39,737 nucleotides of DNA from Bacilli bacterium (lineage in GTDB: Bacteria > Bacillota_I > Bacilli_A > RF39 > UBA660), in contig JAGALD010000070.1 in NCBI GenBank assembly GCA_017625395.1, positions 1 through 39,737 on the forward strand, written 5' to 3'. The notes under the pieces are model-generated. The model saw nothing but the letters and a program-made list of their open reading frames with translations, was not told where the DNA came from and did not search any database. The stretch's first letter is position 1, and the number at the start of each line of letters is the position of its first letter. The position numbers were made by a program, and so were the translations under genes. Shown one piece after another: positions 2 to 39,049 of this stretch.

Positions 2-2122
2 ATTACAGTAACAGCAGAGGATAATTCAACAAATGTTTATACTGTTAAAATTGTAAGAGAAGGAAATGATGATGCAACATTAAAAGACATCAAATTAGAT
101 GGAACATTAATAGATGGATTTGCATCAGGAACAACAACATATACATTAGAAGATATAACAACAGATATAACAAAATTAAATATTACAGCAACAGCTAATG
201 ATTCAAATGCAACAGTAACAATAACTGGAGCAGATGCAATCAAAGTTGGAGATAACACTATAACAATAACAGTAGTAGCAGAAGATGGTAAAACAACAAA
301 TACATACACAATAAATGTTAAAAAATTATCTAGTGATAATACATTAAAATCATTAAGTGTTAACAAAGGAACATTAAATCCAACATTCGTATCAGGAACA
401 AAAGAATATACTGTTACAATGGAAGAAGATGTAACAACAATTAATGAAAGTATGATCACAGCAGTAGCAAATCATGAAGGAGCAACAATTGTTTACGATA
501 CAGAAAAAACAATTAATACTTCAAATGCTACAGAATTTATAATCACAGTAACAAGTGAATCAGGTTTATCTGAAACTTATAAATTAAATGTTATTAAAGC
601 AAAAAATAGTAATGCAACATTAAGTAGTTTATCAGTAGATGAAGGAACTTTAAGTCCAGCATTTGCATCAGGAACTACATCATATACAGTAAATGTAGGA
701 AATGAAATTGATAAAATAACAGTAAATGCAGAAGCAACAGATTCAAATGCAGATGTTGAAATTGAAGGTGCTGATTCATTAGAAGTTGGAGAAAATACAG
801 TAACAATTACAGTAACAAGCGAAGATGGAACTCCAAAAGTATATACAATAAAAGTTATTAAAGCAGGAAGTTCTGATGCAACATTAAAATCAATTAAAGT
901 TAATGATGTATTAATTACAGGATTTGATGCTGAAACATTAGAATATACATTACCAAAAGTTGATTATGCAACAACAACATTAAAAATATCTGCTGAACCA
1001 AATCATTCAGAAGCTAATGTTGAAGGTACAGGAAACATAACATTAAAAACTGGTAATAATGTTATTGAATTAACAGTAACAGCAGAAGATGGAACACCAA
1101 GAACTTATAAAATCAATGTTGAAAGAGAAGCAAATAATGATGCAACATTAAAATCATTAAGTATTGGAAGTTATAAATTAAGTCCTGACTTTAATAAAAA
1201 TACATTAGAATATACAATAACAGTAACTGAAACTACAGAAGTATTAAGTCAAAGTGAAGTTAAAGCAGAAGCTACTGATGCTAATGCAACAATAACATTA
1301 GATGCTGATTTATCTTTATCTTCAACTGGAAATAATGTTTATAATATTAAAGTAGTAGCAGAAGATGGTAAAACAACAAATACATATAAAGTAAATGTTA
1401 TTAAGCCAAAATCAACAGATGCAACATTAAAATCATTAAATATTAGTGGTGGAATATTAAATCCAGCATTTACATCAGGACAAAAAACATATGATGTAAC
1501 AATGCCAAATGGAACAACTAAATTTAATAAAGATGTTATTACAGCAGTAGCAAATCATGCTAAAGCATCAATTGCATATTCAAATGAAATTACAATTAAT
1601 AGTGAAACAGCAACAGAATTTGTAATAACAGTAACAGCAGAAAGTGGTGCAACTGAAACTTATAGATTAAATGTAAAAGCAAGTGCAGAAGAAAGTTTAA
1701 ATGAAATAACTTCAACAAAACATACAATTGATGGTGATAATATTAAAACTGTTAAAGTGTATGAAACAGCACTTGAATTAAAAAATAATTTAGATAACGA
1801 AAATGAATATTTAGAAGTATGGTCAGCTGATGAAAAAACAAAAATTGCTGATAATGAACAATTAGCAACAGGTATGATCGTAAAATTAATCAAAAATGGT
1901 AAAGAATTAGATAGAAAATTAGTAGTTATAAAAGGAGATACATCTGGAGATGGTGAAATTGATTTATTTGATGCAGTAATGATATTAAATCATTATCTTG
2001 AAAAATCATCATTAAAGAATGCTTATTTACAAGCAGCATATGTAAATCCAGATACAGAAATCGACTTATTTGATGCGGTAATGATATTAAATCATTACCT
2101 AGGAAAGACATCATTACATTAG
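2..2122 (+). CDS. Cadherin-like repeat protein with C-terminal type I dockerin (5' partial)
   Basis: The frame is open from base 2, so the gene starts left of the window and the first Met at 419 is internal. It has at least six repeats of the cadherin-like beta-sandwich type (PF12733-like), each opening with a variant of DATLKSLS...G.L.P.F and closing with VTAEDGT..TYTINV. From about 1934 to the end there is a type I dockerin: two copies of EIDLFDAVMILNHYL. The first calcium loop, GDTSGDGEIDLFD, is canonical; the second, YVNPDTEIDLFD, has Tyr where the first Asp should be. It is presumably exported and docks onto the cohesins encoded next door. The stop codon lies against the AGGAGG of the next gene, so the genes are probably co-transcribed. 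No catalytic domain is seen in the visible part; one could lie upstream. Confidence 0.9.
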   Translation: MTVTAEDNSTNVYTVKIVREGNDDATLKDIKLDGTLIDGFASGTTTYTLEDITTDITKLNITATANDSNATVTITGADAIKVGDNTITITVVAEDGKTTNTYTINVKKLSSDNTLKSLSVNKGTLNPTFVSGTKEYTVTMEEDVTTINESMITAVANHEGATIVYDTEKTINTSNATEFIITVTSESGLSETYKLNVIKAKNSNATLSSLSVDEGTLSPAFASGTTSYTVNVGNEIDKITVNAEATDSNADVEIEGADSLEVGENTVTITVTSEDGTPKVYTIKVIKAGSSDATLKSIKVNDVLITGFDAETLEYTLPKVDYATTTLKISAEPNHSEANVEGTGNITLKTGNNVIELTVTAEDGTPRTYKINVEREANNDATLKSLSIGSYKLSPDFNKNTLEYTITVTETTEVLSQSEVKAEATDANATITLDADLSLSSTGNNVYNIKVVAEDGKTTNTYKVNVIKPKSTDATLKSLNISGGILNPAFTSGQKTYDVTMPNGTTKFNKDVITAVANHAKASIAYSNEITINSETATEFVITVTAESGATETYRLNVKASAEESLNEITSTKHTIDGDNIKTVKVYETALELKNNLDNENEYLEVWSADEKTKIADNEQLATGMIVKLIKNGKELDRKLVVIKGDTSGDGEIDLFDAVMILNHYLEKSSLKNAYLQAAYVNPDTEIDLFDAVMILNHYLGKTSLH

Positions 2123-2131
2123 GAGGCTAGT

Positions 2132-4327
2132 ATGAAAAGATTAAAAGGGTTAAAAATATTTCTTGTTTTAACAATAATTTGTTCAATATTTTCAATAAAT
2201 ACAACAGTATTTGCAGCTAGTGCAGCAGTTGAATTAAGAGGTAACTCTACTGCAACTGTTGGTGAAAATATTACAATTACTATGTATGTGTCTAATGTAA
2301 GTGGTGCAAATGGTGGAATAGTAAGTGTTGGTGGATCATTAAAATATGATCCATCATACTTGCAATATATATCAGGAACTGGTGCAAGTAGTCCATATCA
2401 ATTTCAAAGTAATAAAATTGCAGATGGAAATTATAAGATAGCTGGTCTTGATACATCATTATCAAATGGTATAACACAAGAAACAAAAGTATTTACATTT
2501 GTATTTAAACCTTTAAAAGAAGGTTCAACAACTATAACTTTAGAAGGAGCATCATTAACTGATACTTCACAAAAAGTAACAACTTCGGTAAGTCCAAAAA
2601 CTATAACAATATCAGCAGCTGCTCCAAAGAGTAGTGATGCAACATTAAAATCATTAAGTGTTAGTGGATATAGTATATCACCAAGTTTTTCTTCCTCTAC
2701 AACTTCTTATAATGTAACTGTACCATCAACTGAAAGTTCAGTAACTATAAATGCGGCAGCAAATCATAGTGCTGCAAAAGTAAGTGGTACAGGTAAAATA
2801 AATTTAAGTGGTGATACAACTAACGCTACAATTAAAGTAACAGCAGAAAATGGAACAACTAAAAATTATACAGTAACAATTAATAGAGAAAAAGCAGTAA
2901 CACCTACACCAACACCAGATAATAAAAGTAGTGATGCAACATTAAAAAGTTTAGATGTTAGTGGATATACATTAAGTCCAGCATTTAGAAGTGATGTAAC
3001 TACTTATTCAATGAAAGTTGAAAATGGTGTAACAGGTTTAAATGTAAATGCAGTAGCTAATGATTCAAAAGCAAGTGTAAGTGTAAGTGGAAATAAAGGA
3101 TGGAATGTTGGAAATAATACAATAACAATAAAAGTAGTTGCAGAAAATGGAACAGTAAACAATTACTTAGTTAATGTAACAAGAGCAGCAGCTCAAGCAC
3201 AAACTCAAAATCCAACAACTACAACACCTGCAAAAAAATCAACAGATAATTATTTAAAAAGTTTAACAATTTTATCAGCACACGAAATTACACCAAACTT
3301 TGATAAAAATGTTACAAGTTATAACATTGTAGTTCCAAATGATGTAACAAATTTAGATTTTGAAGCAATTAAAAATAGTAGCAAAGCTACAGTTTCTATA
3401 ACAGGAGATAGTACTTTAAGTACAACAAATGTTAATGTAATTCAAATTACAGTAACAGCAGAAGATAACAGTATTCGTATTTATACATTAAATGTAACAA
3501 GAAGTGCTTATAAAAATGGAGCATATTTAAAAGAATTAAATATTAATGGTGCAGAATTATCACCAAAATTTGAACCTGATATATTAGAATATAAAACTAA
3601 TGTAAGTGGTAAAGTTAATGAATTAGACATTACAGCAACACCAAGTGATAGTTCATCAAAAGTTGAAATAATTGGTAATAATGATTTAAAAGAAGGTAAT
3701 AATTCAATTTTTATTAGAGTAACTGATAAAAATGGATTTACTCAAATATATTCATTAGACGTTGTAAAAGAAGAAGCAGTATCAACAATTTTAGGATTTA
3801 CTCATATGCAATTTTTAGGAATCCTATTTATAATATTATTATTCTTAATCCTATTAGCAATAATCTTCTATTTACTACGTAGAAAAAATGAAAAAGAACT
3901 TGCTGAGAGTAAAAATTCTACCCCTATTACTCCAAATACTCCAGCACCAAATGTATTTGAATTTAAACCAGAATTTAACTTTAATTCAAAAAATTCATCA
4001 GATGATGATACAATTTTAGGAAATCCAAGTCAAAATAATTTTGATACAAAATTAGAACATAAAAATAAAGATTTATTAACATATGATAATGAACCTAAAA
4101 AACGTACAGATATATATGAAGCAAAATATGAGGAAAAATATGATCCTTATGATGAAATTGTAACAAAGGATGAATTATATGATGCTTTAAAAGAAGCACA
4201 AGAAACAAAAAATGTAGATAAATTAAATATGTTATTAGAACAAGAAAAATTAAATAGAAAAAAAGAAGAAATTAGACAACAAGAAGAACAAAAGAAACAA
4301 GAAGAAAAAATGAGAGACTGGAGGTAA
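2132..4327 (+). CDS. Membrane-anchored cohesin protein with cadherin-like repeats
   Basis: This 731-residue protein has a signal peptide (about residues 1-29, ending TTVFAASA), then a cohesin domain (about 32-165). That domain shares PYQFQ-x-NK, GNYK-x-AGLD and LTD motifs with the cohesin encoded at 7120-7851. Four cadherin-like repeats follow (DATLKSLSVSGYSISPSF, DATLKSLDVSGYTLSPAF and two more divergent ones), separated by short Thr/Pro linkers. A single transmembrane helix lies near residues 556-582 and is followed by about 150 charged, Glu/Lys/Gln-rich residues predicted to be cytoplasmic. The anchor is a membrane helix rather than LPXTG or SLH. AGGAGG just upstream supports the ATG. I infer that it displays a cohesin receptor for the dockerin protein encoded immediately upstream. 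Confidence 0.88.
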   Translation: MKRLKGLKIFLVLTIICSIFSINTTVFAASAAVELRGNSTATVGENITITMYVSNVSGANGGIVSVGGSLKYDPSYLQYISGTGASSPYQFQSNKIADGNYKIAGLDTSLSNGITQETKVFTFVFKPLKEGSTTITLEGASLTDTSQKVTTSVSPKTITISAAAPKSSDATLKSLSVSGYSISPSFSSSTTSYNVTVPSTESSVTINAAANHSAAKVSGTGKINLSGDTTNATIKVTAENGTTKNYTVTINREKAVTPTPTPDNKSSDATLKSLDVSGYTLSPAFRSDVTTYSMKVENGVTGLNVNAVANDSKASVSVSGNKGWNVGNNTITIKVVAENGTVNNYLVNVTRAAAQAQTQNPTTTTPAKKSTDNYLKSLTILSAHEITPNFDKNVTSYNIVVPNDVTNLDFEAIKNSSKATVSITGDSTLSTTNVNVIQITVTAEDNSIRIYTLNVTRSAYKNGAYLKELNINGAELSPKFEPDILEYKTNVSGKVNELDITATPSDSSSKVEIIGNNDLKEGNNSIFIRVTDKNGFTQIYSLDVVKEEAVSTILGFTHMQFLGILFIILLFLILLAIIFYLLRRKNEKELAESKNSTPITPNTPAPNVFEFKPEFNFNSKNSSDDDTILGNPSQNNFDTKLEHKNKDLLTYDNEPKKRTDIYEAKYEEKYDPYDEIVTKDELYDALKEAQETKNVDKLNMLLEQEKLNRKKEEIRQQEEQKKQEEKMRDWR

Positions 4328-4331
4328 TTTT

Positions 4332-6041
4332 ATGAAAAAAATAAGTAGATTATTTACAACTTTCATTTTTTTCTTTTTTCTCTCTTTAAGTCCATTAGTA
4401 GTACATGCAGCAGGTAGTGCATCAACTGGATTTAGTGGAAATGGTAGTGTTTATGTTGGAAATACTATTGAAGTAACATTATATGTAGGTAGTGTTAGTG
4501 GAACAACAAATAATGGTGGTTTAGCCGCATTTGGTGGTAATATATCATATCCAAGTGATAAATTAGAATTAATAAGTAGTCAATCATTAGCACCTTTTAC
4601 AATTCAAATGAATGGAACTAAATTAGGTGGTTTTGGACAAAATACAATTAAAGGTCGTTCAAATATAATGAAATTTACTTTTAGAGCAAAAGCTTTAGGA
4701 AGTGCAACAATTTCATATAGCGGTAGTAGTCAACCAGATTCAGAAGCATCTCCTGTTTCTATATCAGGTTCAAGTAAAACTATTAGTATTACAAACCCAC
4801 CAAGTTCAAACAATAATTTAGCTAGTTTATCAATTAGTAATGGTAGTATTAATTTTAATAAAAATACAACAAGTTATAGTGTTTCAGTTCCATCTAACGT
4901 AACAAGTGTAAATGTTAGTGCATCTCCAGAAGATGGTGGAGCTAGAGTATCAGGAACTGGTACAAGAAATTTAAATTATGGAAATAATAGTATAGGTATA
5001 ACAGTAACAGCTCCAAGTGGTGCTCAAAAAACATATACAATCAATGTTAATCGTAAAGATGATAGAAGTTCAAACAATAAATTAGCAAGTTTAAGTGTTA
5101 ATGGTGGAAGTTTAAGTCCAGCATTTAACGCAAATACAGAAGTGTATAGTGTATCAGTACCATTTAGTGTTGATAATTTAAAAGTAAATTATAAAACACA
5201 AGATGGTAAATCAAAAGTTAGTATTTCTGATACAGCACTTGTTGCAGAAGAAACTAGAGCAGTATATATAACAGTAACAGCAGAAAATGGTGCTCAAAAA
5301 ACATATACAATAAATGCTAGTAGAGGTAAAGATCCAAATAAAGTATTATCAACAAATAACTTTTTATCAAAACTTGCAGTATCAGAAGGAAGATTAAGCC
5401 CAGCATTCAATAAGGAACAACTTGAATATATAGTATATGTACCTTATGAAGTTGAAAAAGTTTCATTTGAAACAGATGTTGAAGATAAAAAATATGCAAC
5501 TGTAAAAATAGATGGTCCTGAAAAATTAGACGTAGGAAACAATAATTATAAAATAAATGTTACTGCAGAAGATAGTTCAGTAAAAACTTATTCAGTTACT
5601 GTTGCAAGAGGTATCAACATGACTGGTGAAAAATTAAGCTCTAATATTTATCTTAAAGAAATTAAGATAAAAGGTGGTTCATTAAAAGAAAAATTTGATA
5701 AAAAAGTATTTAGTTATAAATATACTGGTGGAAAAGTAACAGCAATCCCTGAAGATGAAAATAGTGAAGTATCAATGATTGAAAGTGATAATAGCGTAGT
5801 TATTATGGTTAAATCACCATCAGGAGAAATTGGTACATATACATTAATTTTATCTAAAATAAATGTTGTTGGAATCATTGTTTATATTTTATTAGGATTA
5901 GGAATAGTTGGTAGTGCAATTGTTGGATACAATGTAGCTAAGAAAAAATATTCAACTGAAGAACCAACAAAAAAAGAAAAGAAGAAAAAGGATAAAAAAG
6001 GAAAGTTAGACAATAAAAATCAAGAAAAGACAGAAAATTAG
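4332..6041 (+). CDS. Second membrane-anchored cohesin protein
   Basis: This 569-residue protein starts 4 bases after the previous gene behind TGGAGG. It has a signal peptide (about 1-27, ending VVHA), a cohesin-like domain (about 30-155, with NGGLAAFGGNISYPSDKLEL), three clear cadherin-like repeats (NNLASLSISNGSINFNKN, NKLASLSVNGGSLSPAFN, NFLSKLAVSEGRLSPAFN) and a fourth, shorter one. One transmembrane helix follows (about 513-537, VVGIIVYILLGLGIVGSAIV), with a Lys-rich cytoplasmic tail. Its cohesin diverges more from the other two, so it may bind a different dockerin or bind with different strength. It is the last gene of the operon; a terminator overlaps its stop codon. Confidence 0.87.
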   Translation: MKKISRLFTTFIFFFFLSLSPLVVHAAGSASTGFSGNGSVYVGNTIEVTLYVGSVSGTTNNGGLAAFGGNISYPSDKLELISSQSLAPFTIQMNGTKLGGFGQNTIKGRSNIMKFTFRAKALGSATISYSGSSQPDSEASPVSISGSSKTISITNPPSSNNNLASLSISNGSINFNKNTTSYSVSVPSNVTSVNVSASPEDGGARVSGTGTRNLNYGNNSIGITVTAPSGAQKTYTINVNRKDDRSSNNKLASLSVNGGSLSPAFNANTEVYSVSVPFSVDNLKVNYKTQDGKSKVSISDTALVAEETRAVYITVTAENGAQKTYTINASRGKDPNKVLSTNNFLSKLAVSEGRLSPAFNKEQLEYIVYVPYEVEKVSFETDVEDKKYATVKIDGPEKLDVGNNNYKINVTAEDSSVKTYSVTVARGINMTGEKLSSNIYLKEIKIKGGSLKEKFDKKVFSYKYTGGKVTAIPEDENSEVSMIESDNSVVIMVKSPSGEIGTYTLILSKINVVGIIVYILLGLGIVGSAIVGYNVAKKKYSTEEPTKKEKKKKDKKGKLDNKNQEKTEN

Positions 6042-6056
6042 TTTTCTGTTTTTTTT
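6030..6056 (+). terminator. Intrinsic terminator ending the cohesin-dockerin operon
   Basis: Arms CAGAAAA (6031-6037) and TTTTCTG (6042-6048) enclose a TTAG loop and are followed by eight T. The stop codon of the second cohesin gene sits in the loop. Confidence 0.85.
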
Positions 6057-6086
6057 ATTGAAAAGGTTTTATTTACACATATTTTA

Positions 6087-6095
6087 TGTTATAAT
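6087..6095 (+). promoter_or_regulatory. Extended -10 promoter for the FxLYD-like gene
   Basis: TGTTATAAT is an extended -10 element lying 22 bases before the gene start at 6118. The -35 region is weak (TTTTAT at 6067). It follows the operon terminator, which fits a new transcription unit. Confidence 0.5.
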
Positions 6096-6117
6096 TAAAA
6101 AGAGGTAGGTAGGTAAT

Positions 6118-6579
6118 ATGAAGGAATTATTTAACAAATTTAAAAATAAATTAGTTGAAAACAAAAAAATAGCATTAATAGCAGTAGCAATTATTGTTAT
6201 TATAATAGTTGCGATAATTGTAATTTCAAACATTAATAGTAATAAAGAAGTTACAAAATTAGATTATAATAAAGAAACAGACACTTATGAAATAGGTGGA
6301 GGAAAAATTATAATTGAAGATGATTTTGAAATTGGATATGATGTAGTAACTAAAAAATATACAGTTTATGGTACAATCACAAATAAAACAGATAAGGAAT
6401 ATAAAGAATTAGAATTAAAATTTGAATTCTACAATCAAAAGAAAGAAGTGATTGGAGATGCTCTAAAAACTATTAAAAACTTAAAAGCAAATGATAAAAC
6501 AGATATGAAATTTTCTTTAGATAAACAACCATCACAAATGATTTATGATTATAAAATCGTTGATGTAAAAGCAAAATAA
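6118..6579 (+). CDS. Single-pass membrane protein with FxLYD-like extracellular domain
   Basis: This 153-residue protein has a short basic N-terminus, one strong transmembrane helix (about residues 19-40, rich in Ile and Val) and an extracellular domain of about 100 residues. The segment KYTVYGTITNKTDKEYKELE, then FEFYNQKKEVIGDA and IKNLKANDKTDMKF, follows the pattern of FxLYD domains (YxVxGxxxN..., then Y-D/N-x-x-G, then L.aGe...F). Such proteins are common, poorly characterised envelope proteins of Firmicutes. AGAGGT lies before the ATG. Confidence 0.7.
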   Translation: MKELFNKFKNKLVENKKIALIAVAIIVIIIVAIIVISNINSNKEVTKLDYNKETDTYEIGGGKIIIEDDFEIGYDVVTKKYTVYGTITNKTDKEYKELELKFEFYNQKKEVIGDALKTIKNLKANDKTDMKFSLDKQPSQMIYDYKIVDVKAK

Positions 6580-6628
6580 AAGAAGTTTTACATTTCTTTT
6601 TATTTATATTTAGTAGGCGGTGAAATTT

Positions 6629-7066
6629 ATGAAAAATATTAACAAGAAAACATTTGCCATAATATCAATAATTATATTAGTTATAATTGTTGGAATAATT
6701 ATTTTAGTAAATGTAATAGGTAATAAACCATTAAGTCAAGAAGAAAAACTAGAAGAATTATTTACTACAATGAGTGTAGAATATTATGAAGATCATTATT
6801 ACAATTTAGTTGGAACAACACAAGAAGAAAGAGAATCTTTTTTAAAAAAATTTAAATCTACTGGAATTCAATTTAGTTTAGATAGTTTATCTCGTTATAA
6901 TGCTGAAGTTAATAAAAAAAGAATTGAAGAATTTGTTAATCTAGAAACTAATGAAAAATGTGATATATATGAAACTACTGCAGTTGTATATCCAAAAGAA
7001 CCTTATAAAAAAGATTCATATGAGATTAAAGTTAAATTAGATTGTGGATTTAAGAAAGAAAAATAA
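6629..7066 (+). CDS. Single-pass membrane protein of unknown function
   Basis: I do not recognise a family. The product has 145 residues: a basic N-terminus, a transmembrane helix (about 8-30, AIISIIILVIIVGIIILVNV) and an acidic extracellular region with two Cys (in NEKCDIYE and KLDCGF) that could form a disulfide. An in-frame GTG at 6620 overlaps the ribosome binding site TAGGCGG; the ATG at 6629 is correctly spaced and preferred. It resembles its upstream neighbour in layout and may be co-transcribed, with only a weak A/T-rich hairpin between them. Confidence 0.65.
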   Translation: MKNINKKTFAIISIIILVIIVGIIILVNVIGNKPLSQEEKLEELFTTMSVEYYEDHYYNLVGTTQEERESFLKKFKSTGIQFSLDSLSRYNAEVNKKRIEEFVNLETNEKCDIYETTAVVYPKEPYKKDSYEIKVKLDCGFKKEK

Positions 7067-7078
7067 AAAAATGTATAA

Positions 7079-7115
7079 AAAAGAAGAAGTTTAATTTTAA
7101 ATAACTTCTTCTTTT
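7079..7115. terminator. Bidirectional terminator between convergent genes
   Basis: A perfect 13-base inverted repeat, AAAAGAAGAAGTT (7079-7091) and AACTTCTTCTTTT (7103-7115), with an 11-base loop lies between the + strand gene ending at 7066 and the - strand gene ending at 7120. The A and T tracts let it work in both directions. Confidence 0.85.
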
Positions 7116-7119
7116 AATA

Positions 7120-7851
7120 TTATCTAAATAAATTTTTGATTTGAGATAAAAAGTTACTAAATAAATTTTGTGCTTTTTTAAATATAGTTTCTTTTTCTTG
7201 AGTAACTTCTTTAACCTCAACATTTATTTTTTCTACTTTTACTGGTTTATTAATAACTTCTTCTACCTTTGTTTCTTTTTCAATTTTTTCAACTTTTTCA
7301 ACATTGTTATTTACTGTTTGTTTAACAACAACATTTTCTTTTACTGGTGCAATGTTTTCAATAACTACAGGTTCTTCTTTTTCAATAGAAATGTTTTTAG
7401 TAATTACAGTTGTATCAATATAACTTTGACTATCAGTTAATCTAGCATCATTTAATGAAATTGAAGTATTACCTTCATCAATTGCTTTAAATGTAATTTC
7501 ATAAACAGTAGTTGTATTATAAATACCATTAGCTAAAGTCATATCTAATCCAGCAAGTTTATAATTACCTTCACCAATTTTATTTGTTTGAAATTGATAT
7601 GGTGCATTAACTTCTTTAGATGAAACATATTCTAATTTAGTATTGTCAAATAAGATATTTCCCCCCATACTAACAACACCATCATATGTATCTTTAATAT
7701 CAGATACATTCATTGAAACAGTAAATGTTTCACCAACTTTAACATTGTTGTTACCTGAAAAAGTAACTGTAGCATTTCCCATTGCTTCAACAGGTGAAGC
7801 AGATAGCATTAAACCTATTAATGCAGTTCCGATCATAAATCTTTTTTTCAT
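7120..7851 (-). CDS. Secreted cohesin-domain protein without membrane anchor
   Basis: This 243-residue protein has a signal peptide (about 1-23, ending SPVEA) and a cohesin domain (about 25-158) strikingly like that of the gene at 2132: PYQFQTNKIGEGNYKLAGLD, then LTDSQSYIDTTVITKNISI. A Val/Lys/Glu-rich low-complexity linker (about 160-218) follows, with a short basic amphipathic end (KAQNLFSNFLSQIKNLFR). There is no transmembrane helix, LPXTG, SLH or dockerin. The product is therefore released, or held through the amphipathic tail or an unseen partner. AAAGGGGG precedes the ATG. It is the only clear - strand gene in the window and has its own promoter. Confidence 0.85.
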   Translation of the reverse strand: MKKRFMIGTALIGLMLSASPVEAMGNATVTFSGNNNVKVGETFTVSMNVSDIKDTYDGVVSMGGNILFDNTKLEYVSSKEVNAPYQFQTNKIGEGNYKLAGLDMTLANGIYNTTTVYEITFKAIDEGNTSISLNDARLTDSQSYIDTTVITKNISIEKEEPVVIENIAPVKENVVVKQTVNNNVEKVEKIEKETKVEEVINKPVKVEKINVEVKEVTQEKETIFKKAQNLFSNFLSQIKNLFR

Positions 7852-10502: not shown

Positions 10503-10622
10503 ATGAAATTTTTAATTATTATAGGATTATCAATATTAGTGTTGATAATTCTTTTTTTATATTCTGCTTGTGTAATATCAAGTAGATGTTCAAGAATGGA
10601 GGAAGAAAATGACAAAAACTAA
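10503..10622 (+). CDS. Small membrane protein, copy 1 of the YSACVIS-RCSR pair
   Basis: This 39-residue protein is almost all one hydrophobic helix (KFLIIIGLSILVLIILFL) followed by YSACVISSRCSRMEEE. The same tail is encoded at 21918-22043. Two conserved Cys sit just after the helix. GAGGTG precedes the ATG. The gene overlaps the start of the adhesin gene by 14 bases, suggesting translational coupling. It contains a terminator-like hairpin at 10524-10559. No known family is recognised; a small regulatory or assembly subunit of the transfer apparatus is possible. Confidence 0.7.
   Translation: MKFLIIIGLSILVLIILFLYSACVISSRCSRMEEENDKN
10524..10559 (+). terminator. Terminator-like hairpin inside small gene copy 1
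   Basis: GGATTATCAA (10524-10533) and TTGATAATTC (10542-10551) form a 10-bp stem with one G-U pair, followed by seven T's. It lies wholly within the coding sequence. Confidence 0.6.
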
Positions 10623-13600
10623 AAAAGCACTTGTATCTCTGGGTGTTATGTTATCAACAGTTTTTGGCTTATTTATGAATTGTAATGAAGTAAATGCAGA
10701 AAGTTACTCGGGACAAGCAATTTGGCCTAGTGAATCAATTGCAAATATATACATAAAGAAAGATAGATCTGATGGTTATACAAAATACCAACAAGCAAGA
10801 TTTATTAGAAGAAGTGAAGATAATAGATTTGTTTATTGCTTACAACCATATGCAGACATTGATAATAATTATGTTTATCAAGTAGCAAGAAGTGATTATG
10901 AAATATATCTTAATATGACAAAAGAACAATTTCAAAGAATCAATTTATATGCTTATTATGGATATGGATATGGTAATCATCAAGATCATAAGTGGTATGC
11001 TATAACTCAAGTTTTAATTTGGAGAACTGCAGATCCATCATCACAAATATATTTTACAGATACATTAAATGGATCTAGAAATGATAGTATTTTTGCTAGT
11101 GAAATGGCAGAATTAGAAGCTATGGTAAACTCACATTATGCTACACCACAATTTGATGGAATAAATGATGTGAAACTACCACTTACAAAATCTATAACTT
11201 TAAATGATAATAATAATAAATTAGGTGAATATAAAGTTGTAGGTCAAGAAAATATATCTGCTAGTATTAATGGAAATTCATTAACATTAACAGCTACAGG
11301 TATTGGTAACGCATCTGTAACATTAACAAAAACAGATACAAGATTCACAATACCACCAATAGTATATTTTAGTAATTATTCACAAAATGTATTTAGACTT
11401 GGAGCATATGATCCTTTAACTGTTAAATTTAATTTAGAAGTTATTGGTGGTAAAGTAGCAATTGAAAAAGTTGATAGTGATACATTAACAAATGTTGCTC
11501 AAGGTAATGCAACTTTAAAAGGAGCTGTTTATGGTATATTTACTGAAAATGGAACAAAGATTGCAGAAATAACAACAGATGCAAATGGATATGCTAAAAG
11601 TGATTATTTACCAAGTATTGGTAAGTTATATGTACAAGAATTAAAAGCAAGTCAAGGATATAAATTAGATCCAAATAAATATTATGTTGATGTAACAAGT
11701 AACAATTTAGAACCTACAATACAAGTAAAAGAAGAAGTTATTGAAGGAAAAATTAAAATCAATAAAGTTGATAGTGAAACTAATGCTTGTAAAGCACAAG
11801 GTGAAGCTACACTTGTTGGTGCAAAATACAAAGTATTAAATTCTAAAGGTGAAGTAGTTGATACTTTAACTATAGGAGAAGATTGTTCCGCAACTAGTAA
11901 AAATTTACCTTATGGTAATTATAAAGTTGTAGAAGAAAAAAGTTCAGTAGGATATTATATAGATAATACTCAATATAATGTTTCTATAAATGAAGAAAAA
12001 ACATTTTCAGTAACAAGTAAAGAAAATGTTATTAAAGGAAAAATCAAAGTTACTAAAGTAGATAGTGAAAATAATTCATGTACAGCGCAAGGACAAGCTG
12101 TCTTAAAAGGTGCTATCTATGAAATATTAGATTTAAAAGGTAATGTAGTTGATACAATTACTATTGATGAAAATTGTAGTGCTACATCTAAATATCTACC
12201 ATATGGGCGTTATAAGATAAAAGAAAAAACATCTTCAAAAGGTTATTATTTAGATACAAATATTTATAGTGCAAATATAGTAGAAAATAATATTATTAAT
12301 ATAACTTCAAAAGAACAAGTTATAAAAAATTATATTAGTATATTAAAACAATATGATTACGTAGATGGAACTACACAATTTTTAAATGCAGAATCAAATA
12401 TTACATTTGAAATTTATTATCCAAATGGTAATAAGTTTGGAGAAGTAACAACAGATAAAAATGGGTATGCTACATTAGATATACCATATGGTGTATGGAA
12501 ATTTCATCAAGTAAATACTACTACTGGATTTGAAAAAATATATGATTTTTATATTACAGTAGATGAAAATAGTAATTTAAAACAATACTATAATGTATTA
12601 AATAATAAAATATCAGCATATTTACAAGTATTTAAAACTGATAGTGAAACAGGTAAGACAATAGCACTAGTAGATACAACATTTAAAATATTAAATGTAG
12701 ATACAAATCAATATGTTAGTCAATATGTTGGTGGAAAAGTATATGATGAATTTAAAACTGATGAAACAGGTAAATTCATCACTTATTTAAAACTTGAAGC
12801 AGGTAATTATAAATTAATTGAAATAAGTTCACCATCTGGATATTTAATTGATAAAAATGGTTTACCATTTAGTATAGGAAATGATACACATTATAACTAT
12901 ACAACATATGGAGCATTTGTAACTGTATATTTTAAAGATGCTCCAATTAAAGGACAAGTGGAAGTAAATAAAACAGGTGAAAAATTTGTTGTAAACAATG
13001 GTACATTTAAATATGAAGAAATAAAACTTGATGGTGTAGTATTTAATGTTTATGCGGATGAAGATATTAAAACTTCTGACGGACAACATATATATTACAA
13101 CAATGGTGATTTAGTTGATGTTATTACAACAGATACAAATGGATATGCAATTAGTAAAAAATTACCACTTGGAAAATATTATCTAGTTGAGACAAAAACA
13201 AAAGACGATCACGTTTTAATAGATAAAAAATATTATTTTGAATTAACAGAAGAAAATAATACTACAGCAATTGTATATGATTTATATACTGCTCATAATT
13301 CATTAAAAAAGGGTGATTTAGAATTTACGAAAACAGATTTAGTAGATGGAGAAGTTATACCAAATGTTGAAATAAGCATATATACAGAAAAAGATGAACT
13401 TGTTTTCAATGGTAAAACAGATTCAAATGGAAAAATAGTAATTAAAGATTTATATATTGGAAAATATTATTTAATTGAAAAAAATCCAGCAACTGGATAT
13501 ATTTTAAATGATGAAAAGATTTTCTTTGAAATAAAAAATAATGAAATTGTAAAAGCACACATGACTAATAAGAAAATTACATCAACATTGAAATTAACAA

Positions 13601-14229
13601 AAGAAAATGAAGATAAAGAAAAATTAGTTGGTGTAGTGTTTGGAATTTATGATTTAGAAGGAAACTTATTAAGTTCTCATGTTACTAATGAAGAAGGTAT
13701 TATTGAAGTAGAATTAGAATATGGTTCATACTACTATCAAGAAATGGCTACATTAGAATCATATGTTTTAAGTGATGAAAAACAATATTTTGATGTTACT
13801 GTTGATGGAATGGTTATACATAACACAATAGTAAATGAAAAAATTACATCTATTTTAAAAATTTATAAAACAGATGAAAATTCAAAACCACTTGCAAATG
13901 TTGTAATCGGTATTTATGACTTAGAAGGAAATTTATTAAGTTCACATACAACAAATGAAGAAGGTATTATTGAAGTAGAATTAGAATATGGTTCATACTA
14001 CTATCAAGAAATATCTACTTTAGAATCATATATTCTTAGTACAGAAAAAGAATATTTTGATGTAACAAGTGATGGAGAAATAATTGAAAAAATATTAATC
14101 AATGAACTTGAAGAAATTGAAGTACCAAATACTTTAGCAGAAACATATGTAACTGTTGTTAGTGCTATTTTAATAGTTGGTGGAAGTTTAATGATTATAA
14201 TATATAATTTAAAAAGAAAAAGAGATTAA
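10609..14229 (+). CDS. Thioester-domain adhesin with nine SpaA-like domains and sorting signal
   Basis: This 1206-residue protein has a signal peptide (about 1-30, ending NEVNA) and then a thioester domain with the paired Cys77 (FVYCLQP) and Gln134 (ITQVLIWR). In this family the two side chains form an internal thioester that can bond covalently to a target surface. A linker region is followed by about nine SpaA/CnaB-like domains from residue 280, several with the KVDS...LKGA.Y and LPYG.Y...E...GY pattern; such domains often carry Lys-Asn isopeptide bonds. The C-terminus has VPNTLAE, a hydrophobic helix and KRKRD, a variant LPXTG signal. The sortase at 35609 is the obvious partner. It is likely a conjugation adhesin that grips recipient cells. 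Confidence 0.85.
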   Translation: MTKTKKALVSLGVMLSTVFGLFMNCNEVNAESYSGQAIWPSESIANIYIKKDRSDGYTKYQQARFIRRSEDNRFVYCLQPYADIDNNYVYQVARSDYEIYLNMTKEQFQRINLYAYYGYGYGNHQDHKWYAITQVLIWRTADPSSQIYFTDTLNGSRNDSIFASEMAELEAMVNSHYATPQFDGINDVKLPLTKSITLNDNNNKLGEYKVVGQENISASINGNSLTLTATGIGNASVTLTKTDTRFTIPPIVYFSNYSQNVFRLGAYDPLTVKFNLEVIGGKVAIEKVDSDTLTNVAQGNATLKGAVYGIFTENGTKIAEITTDANGYAKSDYLPSIGKLYVQELKASQGYKLDPNKYYVDVTSNNLEPTIQVKEEVIEGKIKINKVDSETNACKAQGEATLVGAKYKVLNSKGEVVDTLTIGEDCSATSKNLPYGNYKVVEEKSSVGYYIDNTQYNVSINEEKTFSVTSKENVIKGKIKVTKVDSENNSCTAQGQAVLKGAIYEILDLKGNVVDTITIDENCSATSKYLPYGRYKIKEKTSSKGYYLDTNIYSANIVENNIINITSKEQVIKNYISILKQYDYVDGTTQFLNAESNITFEIYYPNGNKFGEVTTDKNGYATLDIPYGVWKFHQVNTTTGFEKIYDFYITVDENSNLKQYYNVLNNKISAYLQVFKTDSETGKTIALVDTTFKILNVDTNQYVSQYVGGKVYDEFKTDETGKFITYLKLEAGNYKLIEISSPSGYLIDKNGLPFSIGNDTHYNYTTYGAFVTVYFKDAPIKGQVEVNKTGEKFVVNNGTFKYEEIKLDGVVFNVYADEDIKTSDGQHIYYNNGDLVDVITTDTNGYAISKKLPLGKYYLVETKTKDDHVLIDKKYYFELTEENNTTAIVYDLYTAHNSLKKGDLEFTKTDLVDGEVIPNVEISIYTEKDELVFNGKTDSNGKIVIKDLYIGKYYLIEKNPATGYILNDEKIFFEIKNNEIVKAHMTNKKITSTLKLTKENEDKEKLVGVVFGIYDLEGNLLSSHVTNEEGIIEVELEYGSYYYQEMATLESYVLSDEKQYFDVTVDGMVIHNTIVNEKITSILKIYKTDENSKPLANVVIGIYDLEGNLLSSHTTNEEGIIEVELEYGSYYYQEISTLESYILSTEKEYFDVTSDGEIIEKILINELEEIEVPNTLAETYVTVVSAILIVGGSLMIIIYNLKRKRD
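13687..13745 (+). repeat. 59-base direct repeat, copy 1
   Basis: A perfect 59-base match to 13954-14012, in the same frame, 267 bases apart, within the last two SpaA-like domains of the adhesin. It marks a recent domain duplication or gene conversion. Confidence 0.85.
13954..14012 (+). repeat. 59-base direct repeat, copy 2
   Basis: Second copy of the repeat at 13687-13745. Recombination between the copies would delete or add exactly one domain of 89 residues in frame. Confidence 0.85.
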
Positions 14230-33302: not shown

Positions 33303-35612
33303 ATGGATAATTTAAAATTTGATTCTTTATCTGGTGTTGAACTAATAATTTTAATATTAGTTCTTGCTATCATATTTTTTATTTTATATTTAGAGCCAAG
33401 ATTAAGTAAGAGTAAGTTAAAAAATAATAAGGAACATGGAAGTAGTAAATTTGCTGACATGAAAGAAATAAAAAAAACATTTGATAAAGAAAATATTAAT
33501 AACTTAGAAAAAGCAGGATTCCCAGTATGGTATTCAAAAAAGAATGGAAAGATAGAAGATGTGTATTTTGATAATAAAAGTCCACATCATTTATTGATTG
33601 GTTCAACTGGATCTGGTAAATCTGTTACTGTAGTTTTACCAGAATGTTTAATGTTTGCACAAGCAAAAGAAAAACATAGTGTAGTAGTAACAGATCCAAA
33701 AGGTGAAATATTTAGAAAAACTGGTAGTGTATTTGAAGCAAATGGATATAAAGTTTTAACATTAGATTTTAGAAATCCAACAAAATCAAATAGATTAAAT
33801 ATAATGCAACCAATTATAAAGGAATGGAAAGAGTATTGTTCTAGTCATAAAGCAATGCTCTTTTTAATTTCTCATTTTTTAAAACATAGTAAAGTAAATA
33901 TTGAAAAATTGATGGAAGATGGTGAATATTTGAAAAAGATAAAATCAAATTATTACTTAGATGACTATTTAATAAATGTAATAAAGGATAATATAAGAGA
34001 AATAGAAGGACATTTAAATTCTAAAAAAATGTATAATACAGATATATTAAATAAATATATAGATATTGAAGGAGATTTGAAAAAATTTTTATTATCAAAA
34101 GGTTATAATTATATATTTAATAAAATATTAGAATTACAAAATAAAAGTTCTAGCCATGAAGCTGAAACAAATAGATTAGTAATTGGACTTGCTGATTTAA
34201 TTTTTGTTGATGATTCATCAGGAGATAAATTTTGGATTAATAGTGCTAAACAATTATTTATAGGTATAACAGGTGTTTTTTTAGAAGATTATAGATTAGG
34301 ATTAATTAATGAAAATCAGATAAATATATCAAGTGTAAAAAAATTTCAAAATTCATCATTAATAAAAGAAAATCAAATGTATCTTCAAAGAAATATAAAT
34401 AGTAGAAGATATGGATGTTTGTCTAAAGATTATCTAACATCTATTTTATCTGCAGCTGAAAATACATATAAATCTATAACAGCAGTATTTGGTGAAAAAA
34501 TGGCTATATTTGATGATTTAAATGTAGAAAATATTACAAGTATAAGTGAATTTGAAATAACTGAAATAGGAAGTAAACCTACAGCATTATTTTTAATAGT
34601 ACCAGATGAAGATAGAGCATACTATCAATTAGTAACCATCATTGTTGGAATGATGACAAACGTTTTAACTAAGTTTGCAAATTTAGAAGAAAATAAAGGT
34701 GCACTACCTGTAATGGTAGAATGGATATTAGATGAGTTTTGTAATGCACCACGTTGGAATATAGAAACACAAATAACAGTTGCACGTTCCAGAAGAATGC
34801 GTTATCAAATGTTTATTCAATCTTTTAGTCAGTTAGATCAAGTATATGGAAAAGAAGTTGCAGATATAATAAAAGATAATGCTGCACTAACATATTTAAA
34901 AACTAATTCAGTAGAAGTAGCAGAAGTAATACAAAAGAAGTTAGGTCGTGCTACTATTGAAACATCTTCATTAAGTCAAAGTACAGATCCAATGAAAATT
35001 GGTGGAAATAAAACATTATCTCTAATGGGAAAAGATTTATTAACAGCAACTGAAATAATTGCTTTAAAATATAAAACAATAATATTTCCTACAATATCTA
35101 ATCCTATATTTAGAGATACATATATGTATAGTGATATATACCCACAATTTACAAATGTTGAAGAATTATATAGAAAAGTACAAGTGTTAAAAAGAATAAC
35201 AAGTAATTATTATACTGTTGAAAATTTAAAAAGTAAGTATGATGAATTAAATAAAAAACATATTGAAAGTGCTGCAAAACAATTTCAACAAAGTATAAAT
35301 AAAAATATGAAGAAAAGTATAGATCAAATAACAAAAGAATTTACTAAAGAAGAAAGTAAGTCATTAACGCAAATAGAAATATTTGTAAATGATTTGATTT
35401 CAAAACTAACAATTAAAAATAATGTAGTAGAACAATCATTAAATGATGATGGCTCATATTCAATAACTACAAATAATTGTTTAAATTTAAATGATATTAA
35501 TAAAATGGAAAAGTATATCAAAGAAGATTATACTTTTTCTTTATCTAGAAATATAAATAAGCAAATTACAAAAATATTAATATGGAATAATAAAATGGAG
35601 AAAAAAATATGA
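33303..35612 (+). CDS. VirD4/TraG-type coupling protein
   Basis: This 769-residue ATPase brings the relaxase-DNA complex to the transfer channel. It has one N-terminal transmembrane helix (about 8-28, VELIILILVLAIIFFILYLE), Walker A GSTGSGKS at 100-107 and Walker B WILDEFCNAP with D477 and E478. TraG-type motifs follow (RSRRMRYQMFIQSFSQLDQ). An insertion of about 100 residues (around 180-290) and a long C-terminal tail extend the usual core. It starts immediately after the preceding stop codon and overlaps the sortase start by 4 bases. Confidence 0.88.
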   Translation: MDNLKFDSLSGVELIILILVLAIIFFILYLEPRLSKSKLKNNKEHGSSKFADMKEIKKTFDKENINNLEKAGFPVWYSKKNGKIEDVYFDNKSPHHLLIGSTGSGKSVTVVLPECLMFAQAKEKHSVVVTDPKGEIFRKTGSVFEANGYKVLTLDFRNPTKSNRLNIMQPIIKEWKEYCSSHKAMLFLISHFLKHSKVNIEKLMEDGEYLKKIKSNYYLDDYLINVIKDNIREIEGHLNSKKMYNTDILNKYIDIEGDLKKFLLSKGYNYIFNKILELQNKSSSHEAETNRLVIGLADLIFVDDSSGDKFWINSAKQLFIGITGVFLEDYRLGLINENQINISSVKKFQNSSLIKENQMYLQRNINSRRYGCLSKDYLTSILSAAENTYKSITAVFGEKMAIFDDLNVENITSISEFEITEIGSKPTALFLIVPDEDRAYYQLVTIIVGMMTNVLTKFANLEENKGALPVMVEWILDEFCNAPRWNIETQITVARSRRMRYQMFIQSFSQLDQVYGKEVADIIKDNAALTYLKTNSVEVAEVIQKKLGRATIETSSLSQSTDPMKIGGNKTLSLMGKDLLTATEIIALKYKTIIFPTISNPIFRDTYMYSDIYPQFTNVEELYRKVQVLKRITSNYYTVENLKSKYDELNKKHIESAAKQFQQSINKNMKKSIDQITKEFTKEESKSLTQIEIFVNDLISKLTIKNNVVEQSLNDDGSYSITTNNCLNLNDINKMEKYIKEDYTFSLSRNINKQITKILIWNNKMEKKI
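33827..33865 (+). terminator. Terminator-like hairpin inside the coupling protein gene
   Basis: GAGTATTG (33831-33838) and CAATGCTC (33853-33860), with one G-U pair and flanking A-T pairs, are followed by TTTTT. Confidence 0.55.
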
Positions 35613-36226
35613 AAAAATTTGGATGGATATTAATTTTTACAGGTGCATTAATGATAACATTTTATAATGTATATGTAAGTTCAATTAATATAGTGGAAAA
35701 TGAAAAAGCAGAAGAATATATAGAAATCACTTCATTATCTGAAGAAGTTGAAGAAATAGAAGAAGTGGTAAATGAAGAAATAATTGAAGAAGAAAAAAAA
35801 GAAGAACCAAAGTATGAGATAAATTATACAGCTGTATTAGAAATACCAAAGATTAATTTAAAAAGAGGTGTAGTTGATAGTACAAATAATTTTAAATCAT
35901 TAAATTATGCAATTAGTGTTGATAGACATAGTAAATATCCAAATAATAATGGAAATTTTATTTTATATGCACATTCAGGATCAAGTTCAATTGCATATTT
36001 TAAAAATCTTAATAAAGTTGAATTAAATGATGATATATATGTTTATTATAGCGGAATTAAATATAAATATACTATTATTAAAAAATATGATATAGAAAAA
36101 ACTGGTAAAGCAAAAATAATATCATCTACATCAGATAAATATATAACATTAATAACTTGTAATCAAAATAGAAAAGGTTATCAAACAGTTATTATAGGAA
36201 AATTAGATATAGAAAAGACTTATTAA
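35609..36226 (+). CDS. Sortase of the element
   Basis: This 205-residue protein has an N-terminal membrane anchor (about 4-22), a Glu-rich linker (about 30-68) and a sortase domain with LEIPKINL, the catalytic His122 (LYAHSGSS) and Cys184 (TLITCNQ). The usual catalytic Arg two residues before the final hydrophobic strand is not in place: the strand reads YQTVIIGKL, and the only nearby Arg is 188. It probably attaches the adhesin encoded at 10609 through its VPNTL signal. The class cannot be settled by eye; length and layout fit class B or D. Confidence 0.8.
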   Translation: MKKFGWILIFTGALMITFYNVYVSSINIVENEKAEEYIEITSLSEEVEEIEEVVNEEIIEEEKKEEPKYEINYTAVLEIPKINLKRGVVDSTNNFKSLNYAISVDRHSKYPNNNGNFILYAHSGSSSIAYFKNLNKVELNDDIYVYYSGIKYKYTIIKKYDIEKTGKAKIISSTSDKYITLITCNQNRKGYQTVIIGKLDIEKTY

Positions 36227-36544: not shown

Positions 36545-36556
36545 ATCGAGGTGCTA

Positions 36557-38140
36557 ATGAACGAATTAGAATACAGAGTAGGAATTTATTTAAGATTATC
36601 TAGAGAAGATGAAAGGTTAGGTGAAAGTGGTAGTATATCTACCCAAAGGGATTTATTATTAAATTATATAAGAGATAACAATTTAATATTTGTTGATGAG
36701 TATGTTGATGATGGAGTATCAGGAACAACTTTTGATAGAGCAGGTTTTAATAGAATGATTAAGGACTGTGAAGAAAAAAAGATAAATATGATTATTACAA
36801 AAGATACATCAAGATTAGGAAGAGATCATATTGAATTTGGGTATTATGTTGAAAGATATTTTCCAGAACACGGAATTCGTTATGTTGCAGTAAATGATGG
36901 GATTGATACTGAATCTAATAGTAGTGCTAATGATATGTTAGTATTTAAAAGTGCATTTAATGATATGTATGTTAAAGATATATCAAATAAACAAAGAAGT
37001 GCATTATATGTAAAAAAAAGAAATGGACAATTTGTTGGAGCATATGCACCTTATGGATATAATAAATCAACAGAAGATAAACATAAATTAATAATTAATG
37101 AGGAAGAAGCTGAAGTAGTTAAAAGAATATTTAATATGTTTGCTAAAGGTTATTCATTATCTAGTATTTGTGATATTTTAACTAATGAAAAAATACCAAC
37201 TCCAAGTATTTCAAAAAATATGAATATTGGACAAACTAATCTTCATTATGGTGTATGGGCAACAAGAACGGTTTCTGATATTTTGAAAAGTCCAAATTAT
37301 ATAGGTAATTTGACACAATGTAAACAAAAGAAAATAAGTTATAAATCTAAAAAGAGAATTCATAATCGAAAAGATAATTGGATAATTGTTGAAAATGCTA
37401 TTCCTAGAATTATTGATGATGATTTATTTAATTTGGTACAAGACATATTTAATAGTAATAAAAATAGAGGAAAAGGTAATGGAATTACAGATAAATTATT
37501 ATTAAGAGGATTAATTTATTGTAAGGAATGTGGACATACTTTTGGATTTAGAGCTCAAGAACAAAACACAAAAAAATATGGTAAGGTTACACGAATATAT
37601 GGAAATTGTAATTATTGGGCTAAAAGAAAAAAACAAAATGTATGTACACCTCATAGTGTTAAGTATAATGAAATAGAAGATGCTGTAATATATGAACTTA
37701 AAAATATGTGTCAAAAATATGTTGATTTAAATAATTTAGAAGATAGTTTAAAAAAGTCTAATAAAATACAATCAAAGAAAGATAAATGTAATATTGAAAT
37801 ATTAAAACTAGAAAATTCTAATAAAATGTTAAATAAAAAAATAGATGCTTGTTACAATGATAAATTAGAAGGAAATATTACTCTTGATATGTATAAAAGA
37901 GCATATAATAATTTTATTAATGAAATAAAAGAAAATGAAAATAAAATTAACGAATATAAAAAGGAATTATATAATATAGAAAATAATAATCAAGTAAATG
38001 AAAAAAATTTTTTAAAAAAGATTGAAGAATTTTTGGAATTAAAAAATCCATCTAGAAGTCTTGTTGCTAGTTTAATTGATAGAATAGAAATAACTGAAGA
38101 TAATAATATAGATATATATTATAAATTTAAATTAGTATAA
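36557..38140 (+). CDS. Large serine recombinase (integrase)
   Basis: This 527-residue site-specific recombinase integrates and excises the element. The N-terminal resolvase domain has the catalytic Ser15 (YLRLSRED), followed by ISTQRDLL and DGVSGTTFDRAGF, then KDTSRLGRDH. The recombinase domain (about 165-290) is followed by a zinc ribbon (YCKECGHTF...CNYW...CTPH) and a coiled coil near the C-terminus, as in TndX/TnpX-type enzymes. A GTG at 36551 is in frame, but the ATG at 36557 is preferred. It lies 60 bases from the right junction. Confidence 0.93.
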   Translation: MNELEYRVGIYLRLSREDERLGESGSISTQRDLLLNYIRDNNLIFVDEYVDDGVSGTTFDRAGFNRMIKDCEEKKINMIITKDTSRLGRDHIEFGYYVERYFPEHGIRYVAVNDGIDTESNSSANDMLVFKSAFNDMYVKDISNKQRSALYVKKRNGQFVGAYAPYGYNKSTEDKHKLIINEEEAEVVKRIFNMFAKGYSLSSICDILTNEKIPTPSISKNMNIGQTNLHYGVWATRTVSDILKSPNYIGNLTQCKQKKISYKSKKRIHNRKDNWIIVENAIPRIIDDDLFNLVQDIFNSNKNRGKGNGITDKLLLRGLIYCKECGHTFGFRAQEQNTKKYGKVTRIYGNCNYWAKRKKQNVCTPHSVKYNEIEDAVIYELKNMCQKYVDLNNLEDSLKKSNKIQSKKDKCNIEILKLENSNKMLNKKIDACYNDKLEGNITLDMYKRAYNNFINEIKENENKINEYKKELYNIENNNQVNEKNFLKKIEEFLELKNPSRSLVASLIDRIEITEDNNIDIYYKFKLV

Positions 38141-38173: not shown

Positions 38174-38232
38174 AATTTAAAACTTTTGAGAGTCTAGGTT
38201 GTAACTCCATCATTAAATAAAAGTTTTAAATT
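38174..38232 (+). other. attR: Right attachment site (attR) with 14-base inverted repeats
   Basis: AATTTAAAACTTTT (38174-38187) and its perfect complement AAAAGTTTTAAATT (38219-38232) flank a 31-base centre. The near-palindrome GGTT-GT-AACT occupies 38197-38206. The symmetry axis falls at 38203, next to the GT at 38201-38202, the likely crossover dinucleotide. The reading frame of the lipoprotein gene is open to the right of this point and meets a TAG just to its left, as expected for a junction. Confidence 0.65.
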
Positions 38233-39049
38233 CCAAAGTAATTGGCCAAATAATAGTAGTCAATCATATTTATTAGCATCACTTGCGAGTGATATGACTA
38301 ATGATAGTGAAGCATCATTTGAAGAAAAAGATGGTTATTACATTATAAAAAATAAAGTTGACTATCCTAATAATGAAGAATTAGTTTATGAAAAAGTATA
38401 TTTTGATAAAAAAAATAATTTAAAAAAAGTAGAAGTTTATAATAATCAAGACATGGTTAAAATTAAAGTTGAATTTAGTAAAGTTGATATGAAAGCCTCA
38501 TTAGATGAAGATGACTTTGCACTTTCTAAATTAATTACTGAACCAGAATGTAAGGAAAATTGTAATTCAAATAATAATTCAACTAACAGTAATCAAATAC
38601 CAAATAATACTACTGATGTCCCAGAAAATAGTACAGATGATAATGCATCACCAGAAGGTAATGCAAATAATACAACTACTGAAAATAAACCGACTGCTTC
38701 AATAGAAGATGTTATATATCCATTATATGTCCCAGAAAATACTTCTTTAAAAAGTAAAGATGTTATAGATACAGAAGATGGTGAAAGAGTAATACTTACA
38801 TTTGCAGGAGATAATAGTTTTGTTCTTGTAGAAGAAACTATGAATGTATCAGATGAATTTGAGATAATTCCAGTGTATGGAGATCCAGAAATAATTAATG
38901 ATTCAATTGGGGCATTATCTGCGAATTCATTATCATGGACAAGTAACAACGTTAATTACTATCTAACTGGTACAACTTTAAGCAAAGATGATTTATTAAA
39001 TATTGCTACATCTATGAATAATGTAGGAGTTGTAAATGCTGAAAAATAA
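38198..39049 (+). pseudogene. 3' part of a LolA-like/DUF4367-like lipoprotein gene, interrupted by the element
   Basis: The frame is open from 38198 (VVTPSLNKSFKFQSNWP) to 39049; the ATG at 38294 is internal. The segment EKDGYYIIKNKVDYPNNEEL then VYFDKKNNLKKVEVYN is the second half of a LolA/RseB-like lipid-binding fold. A Ser/Asn/Thr linker follows, then a C-terminal domain ending WTSNNVNYYLTGTTLSKDDL, a DUF4367-like pattern. Related Firmicutes proteins are lipoproteins with envelope or sporulation-linked roles. The signal peptide and first half of the fold are missing from this window, so the gene is probably inactivated by the insertion. Confidence 0.75.

Follow-up and report, generated by a model that had tools for sequence, protein, structure and literature searches.

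The usual interpretation of cohesins and dockerins in a genome is that it encodes cellulose digestion, and a gut survey that counted 4,333 genomes with both modules took their co-presence to indicate a cellulosome-like complex. In Clostridium perfringens they are organised pairwise (PMC12997984), and the locus described here is similar to these non-cellulosomal pairs (2vo8, 2jh2 and 2w1n) in having single cohesins, here predicted to pair one-to-one with dockerins, outside a cellulosome. The two cases differ in that the partners in C. perfringens are secreted glycoside hydrolases, whereas here the cohesin is part of a predicted receptor in the membrane and the dockerin forms the C-terminus of a giant repeat protein. 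A survey of cellulosomes names membrane-helix (nonSLH) anchoring scaffoldins and monovalent adaptor scaffoldins (PMC11557425), and both types have a likeness here, namely single cohesins with a C-terminal membrane helix and proteins composed of one cohesin and one dockerin. Unlike the cellulosomes of that survey, no multi-cohesin primary scaffoldin and no plant-degrading cargo were seen in the loci examined here, and unlike its scaffoldin types the present system has a giant repeat stalk between head and dockerin and a conserved, predicted cytoplasmic tail. Cohesins and dockerins outside cellulose breakdown are also reported from anaerobic methane-oxidising archaea (PMC9012536), with up to five cohesins and transporter-binding cargo; the passages considered describe no fibre-plus-receptor operon. 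A literature search covering few subscription journals returned no paper on a fibre operon or on enzyme-receptor pairs in the bacteria considered here. The analysis below suggests that a small-genome, mostly uncultured gut family appears to hold surface proteins noncovalently, with one receptor per cargo, and that the cargo includes a glucosaminidase likely acting on the cell wall. If this is true, surveys that take the two modules together as a cellulosome would have to be corrected, new plug-and-socket pairs would be readily available, as would a giant fibre, and the tail of the giant-fibre receptor would point to an intracellular partner.

Gene products of the locus

The window, i.e. the whole stretch of 39,737 nucleotides analysed, is one complete contig (C43) from a draft assembly of 1.49 Mb in 110 contigs (93% complete, estimated contamination 3.5%), and the cohesin/dockerin locus occupies its first 7.9 kb (Table 1). 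The N-terminus of the first ORF is missing because the contig starts inside the gene. The remaining part comprises at least six cadherin-like repeats, an X-like module and a C-terminal type I dockerin (PF00404, 26 bits against the Pfam cut-off of 22.9), and this dockerin together with six cadherin-like Pfam matches bears out the composition given for this ORF in the preliminary description. Calcium loop 1 of the dockerin (DTSGDGEIDLFD) is canonical and intact, while loop 2 (YVNPDTEIDLFD) has lost its first calcium ligand, with Tyr replacing Asp at its start; both loops have 'LF' at positions 10-11. With loop 1 intact and loop 2 degenerate, this dockerin would need calcium. The cadherin-like beta sandwich (PF12733) scored 175.8, 139.3 and 107.5 bits in the three repeat proteins of the locus (cut-off 24.2), in which neither DxNDN nor DRE cadherin calcium motifs were found; therefore, calcium would act at the dockerin only.

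Table 1. Features of the window and the evidence or content on which each is named
Feature	Coordinates	Strand	Evidence or content
C-terminal part of giant surface protein	2..2122	+	Pfam, contig boundary, full-length relatives
Dockerin domain	1931..2119	+	Loops 1 and 2, Pfam
Cohesin A	2132..4327	+	Pfam, fold, alignment of relatives
Predicted cytoplasmic tail of cohesin A	3944..4315	+	14-row alignment
Cohesin B	4332..6041	+	Signal peptide, divergent cohesin, 3-4 cadherin-like repeats, membrane helix, lysine-rich tail
Small membrane protein, FxLYD domain	6118..6579	+	NCBIfam NF038353, 41 bits
Small one-helix membrane protein	6620..7066	+	C-terminal end YPKxPYxKxxYxxxVxLxCGF
Free cohesin	7120..7851	-	Signal peptide, cohesin, linker, C-terminal amphipathic helix
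Mobile element, gene content	8189-38200		Single-strand-binding protein, VirB4-like and VirD4-like ATPases, relaxase-like protein
Element sortase-like protein	35609-36226		Sequence reading
Element serine recombinase	36551-38140		Sequence reading

The gene for cohesin A starts ten bases past the dockerin stop and is preceded by a strong ribosome site, AGGAGG. Its product has, in this order, a signal peptide, a cohesin, four cadherin-like repeats, a membrane helix and a conserved tail. The cohesin domain (PF00963) scored 45.3 bits against a cut-off of 24.1, and the AlphaFold model, with local confidence near 95, had its best fold match in 2vo8 (Z 19.1, rmsd 1.9 over 133 residues), which places the N-terminal domain in the cohesin fold as the description had presumed. 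The tail of about 140 residues has 23 invariant positions in an alignment of 14 sequences, with an invariant KPEFNFxSxNxxDxD motif followed by a TKxE..A..E..KL..L..Q..LN..K pattern, and had no match in the PDB. It probably faces the cytoplasm, as suggested by the signal peptide before the helix and the basic residues after it.

Of the three proteins previously called cohesins, cohesin A and the free cohesin (34.0 bits) are over the PF00963 cut-off; cohesin B (18.3 bits) is below it, but its domain aligns to that of cohesin A at E 4e-16. Their division into two anchored proteins and a free one was also borne out, since C-terminal membrane helices are present in A and B (residues 552-570 and 503-521, respectively) and the third protein has a signal peptide only. 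The likeness seen earlier between the free cohesin and the first anchored one corresponds to 43% identity over 136 residues. Neither A nor B has an LPxTG motif, and no SLH domain was matched by Pfam in the cohesin proteins of the locus. As the preliminary description had it, the locus is not a classical cellulosome. The free cohesin has relatives in four loci (L130:4225-5019, L147:12630-13340, L139:12069-12917 and L150:2648-3415). An amphipathic helix ends the protein in the window and in L130 (moment 0.65-0.66; the other relatives are less clear), and 1.1% of shuffles of the window tail reach the observed moment; thus, the free cohesin may be a peripheral membrane protein. Relatives of the small one-helix membrane protein share the operon in L130, L133, L134, L135, L149, L151, L152 and L154.

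Relatives of the operon and dockerin cargo in the family

Within the family, eight genomes were found to have loci with cohesin A relatives (31–43% identity). When named genomes were scanned, 25 loci came up in metagenome genomes, many of rumen or gut origin, under labels such as Bacilli, Tenericutes and Erysipelotrichaceae, several of these records being identical contigs. Of these 25 loci, 16 have enough upstream sequence, and in 15 of the 16 a dockerin-ending gene lies directly upstream of the cohesin A gene (L146 is the lone exception), and cohesin A is only 33–52% identical across the related loci keeping this order. The full-length counterparts of the window's first ORF are secreted proteins of 1,722–2,913 residues with 14–24 cadherin-like repeats, built as a cohesin-fold head, a long repeat stalk and a C-terminal dockerin; proteins of such length fit the fibrous surface layer proposed in the preliminary description. 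All 12 distinct full-length giants adjoining a cohesin A gene start with one homologous head. In the four giants scanned, Pfam named no domain in the first ~200 residues and no enzyme domain was found. The head of the L130 giant was modelled at confidence 82, and cohesins were the top matches to it in both Foldseek and VIA-align (6kgc: Z 14.5, rmsd 2.6 over 140 residues, 25% identity); moreover, a profile comparison of the giant head with the membrane cohesins gave E 2e-9. By analogy, the giant of the window should carry a cohesin-fold head at its missing N-terminus. A search of the genome with a relative's head for the missing 5' end gave no match, which is weak as disproof. Strong matches to the tail of cohesin A occur in 9 of the 291 family genomes (13 with weaker matches); the three further genomes sampled from its own genus have no such match, which makes the distribution of the giant-fibre operon patchy.

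Some of these loci differ in their neighbouring genes. A small cohesin-plus-dockerin adaptor takes the place of cohesin B at L130:13029-13937, L131:2441-3358, L132:2327-3220 and L143:1477-2346, and in L130 the adaptor is followed by a sortase-like gene and then by cohesin proteins with other repeats. In L122 (G256:C17), an ORF of more than 6,300 residues with glycine-rich stretches is located upstream of the giant-fibre operon.

The preliminary description had found no enzymes. This stands for the locus itself and fails for the genome and the family, where dockerins are carried by glucosaminidases and peptidases, and the genome-wide search it had proposed went against it, the only other dockerin found in the genome being on an enzyme-like protein of contig C7. 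That protein consists of an SH3 domain, a SagB-like glucosaminidase region (a match far under the SagB family cut-off), one cadherin-like repeat and a dockerin, and its gene is directly followed by one for a cohesin with a membrane helix. In its glucosaminidase region it is like SagB of the staphylococcal peptidoglycan release complex. In SagB, the membrane helix is part of the enzyme itself, whereas here the membrane attachment would run via the separate cohesin protein. The 93% complete draft genome has five cohesin matches, one per protein, plus cohesin B. Dockerin proteins occur in 11 of the 12 genomes of the genus, where the best dockerin place of each is an enzyme-cohesin pair like that on C7, and in 220 of 291 genomes and 120 of 150 genera of the family. 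Among the 29 top-scoring family loci, the gene immediately downstream encodes a cohesin in 24 (by our own profile) and a protein with a signal peptide and a membrane helix in 28. In most loci examined, the neighbour of the dockerin gene encodes a single membrane-anchored cohesin. Among the cargo in the family are SagB-like glucosaminidases, papain-like C1 peptidases and M6-type peptidases. A few family genomes with many dockerin-like repeats look different. The genome of L183 has 18 dockerin matches and encodes a protein of 483 residues with six tandem dockerin-like matches and an N-terminal membrane helix (L183:2649-4100). At L009:6198-9136, a polysaccharide deacetylase gene without a dockerin immediately precedes the gene of a membrane cohesin that has cadherin-like repeats.

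Distance matrices were compared in 37 non-redundant glucosaminidase operons. Those of the dockerin and the adjacent cohesin correlate at r 0.72, against r 0.45 for the dockerin and the enzyme part of its own protein, and the partial Mantel r of dockerin and cohesin controlling for the enzyme is 0.63, a value that no permutation out of 5,000 reached (n=37). For the giants, r between dockerin and cohesin A is 0.41 (p 0.008), with a partial correlation of 0.24 (p 0.07, n=15); with cohesin B it is 0.11 and not significant, and no co-variation was seen between the head of the giants and their own dockerin (r 0.12, n=12). Such co-variation is what cognate pairs would give, and joint inheritance can contribute to it; that of the giants, weaker than in the enzyme operons, points to cohesin A as the partner. 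In addition, the dockerin and cohesin A were modelled together as a natural read-through chain, their frames agreeing and the TAG stop being read as Q for the model alone; the cohesin was excellent, the dockerin was of low confidence, and no docking pose was obtained (pTM 0.44).

Proposed anchoring and alternative readings

Considering the gene order, the folds and the co-variation, we think that the locus is probably a noncovalent surface-anchoring operon, in which the dockerin of a giant fibre plugs into a membrane receptor, most likely cohesin A. The giant protein would be secreted and its C-terminal dockerin would bind the cohesin of the receptor encoded directly downstream; the cadherin-like repeats of giant and receptor would be spacers carrying the fibre through the cell wall, so that the cohesin-fold head would project outward, where it could hold another dockerin protein or might attach to the host or to food particles, and such a fibre might serve in adhesion. 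The predicted cytoplasmic tail of cohesin A probably has a binding partner inside the cell. A more elaborate form of this, which we regard as possible but rather doubtful, is a self-extending fibre of several tiers, in which subunits that bear a cohesin and, at the opposite end, a dockerin, and that differ in dockerin class, would stack outward from the membrane receptor, whose tail would link them to an intracellular partner for sensing, force or positioning. Four loci encode a second dockerin protein a little upstream, and in each of the four the sequences of the two dockerins clearly differ. Such a difference would arise if the membrane receptor took one of them and the first giant's head the other, and it is no more than suggestive of stacking; in two further loci a second giant is encoded downstream instead, and there the two dockerins are alike.

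That the dockerin and the cohesins are non-binding remnants or structural spacers, in ordinary surface proteins lying side by side, would agree with the degenerate second calcium loop of the window dockerin, with the score of cohesin B under the Pfam cut-off and with the read-through model lacking a docking pose. Yet the gene order is kept in nearly all comparable loci despite the low identity of cohesin A, and in the enzyme operons the dockerin and the adjacent cohesin co-vary beyond the enzyme domain, and we hold this reading to be improbable. We give about as little weight to the idea that the missing N-terminus bears an enzyme, which would make the locus an enzyme-plus-anchor pair like the glucosaminidase pair on C7: the window ORF is incomplete at the contig start and the dockerin cargo of the family is mostly enzymatic, but the 12 full-length relatives share the homologous head (of cohesin fold in L130) followed by repeats, and the four scanned relatives have no enzyme domain. 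Least probable is a reduced cellulosome or mucinolysome displaying glycoside hydrolases for food. Cohesins and dockerins are its hallmark modules; however, only single-cohesin proteins were seen, with no multi-cohesin scaffold in the genome or the loci examined; in these loci, none of the enzymes bearing a dockerin degrades plant material or mucin, and of the two dockerins found in the genome the other one is on the SagB-like glucosaminidase. A cellulosome was therefore rejected.

Contig placement and the adjoining element

To the right of the cohesin/dockerin locus, most of the window is taken up by a likely integrative conjugative element, whose genes were named by sequence reading without a family search (Table 1). 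With a lipoprotein gene interrupted at the right end of this element (described below), either the cohesin operon sits within the element, or the contig is from another organism in the bin; i.e., C43 may be misbinned. Whether the dockerin-cohesin pairs of C7 and C43 share one cell depends on this placement, and the comparative results are independent of it. Within the element, positions 10609-14229 encode a repeat surface protein of 1,206 residues with a VPNT-type sorting signal and a membrane helix; the sortase of the element itself may be what anchors it. At the right end of the element, a lipoprotein gene is interrupted: its 3' fragment is located at 38198-39049, its 5' part is absent from the window and was not found elsewhere in the genome, and an intact paralogue is present on contig C109.
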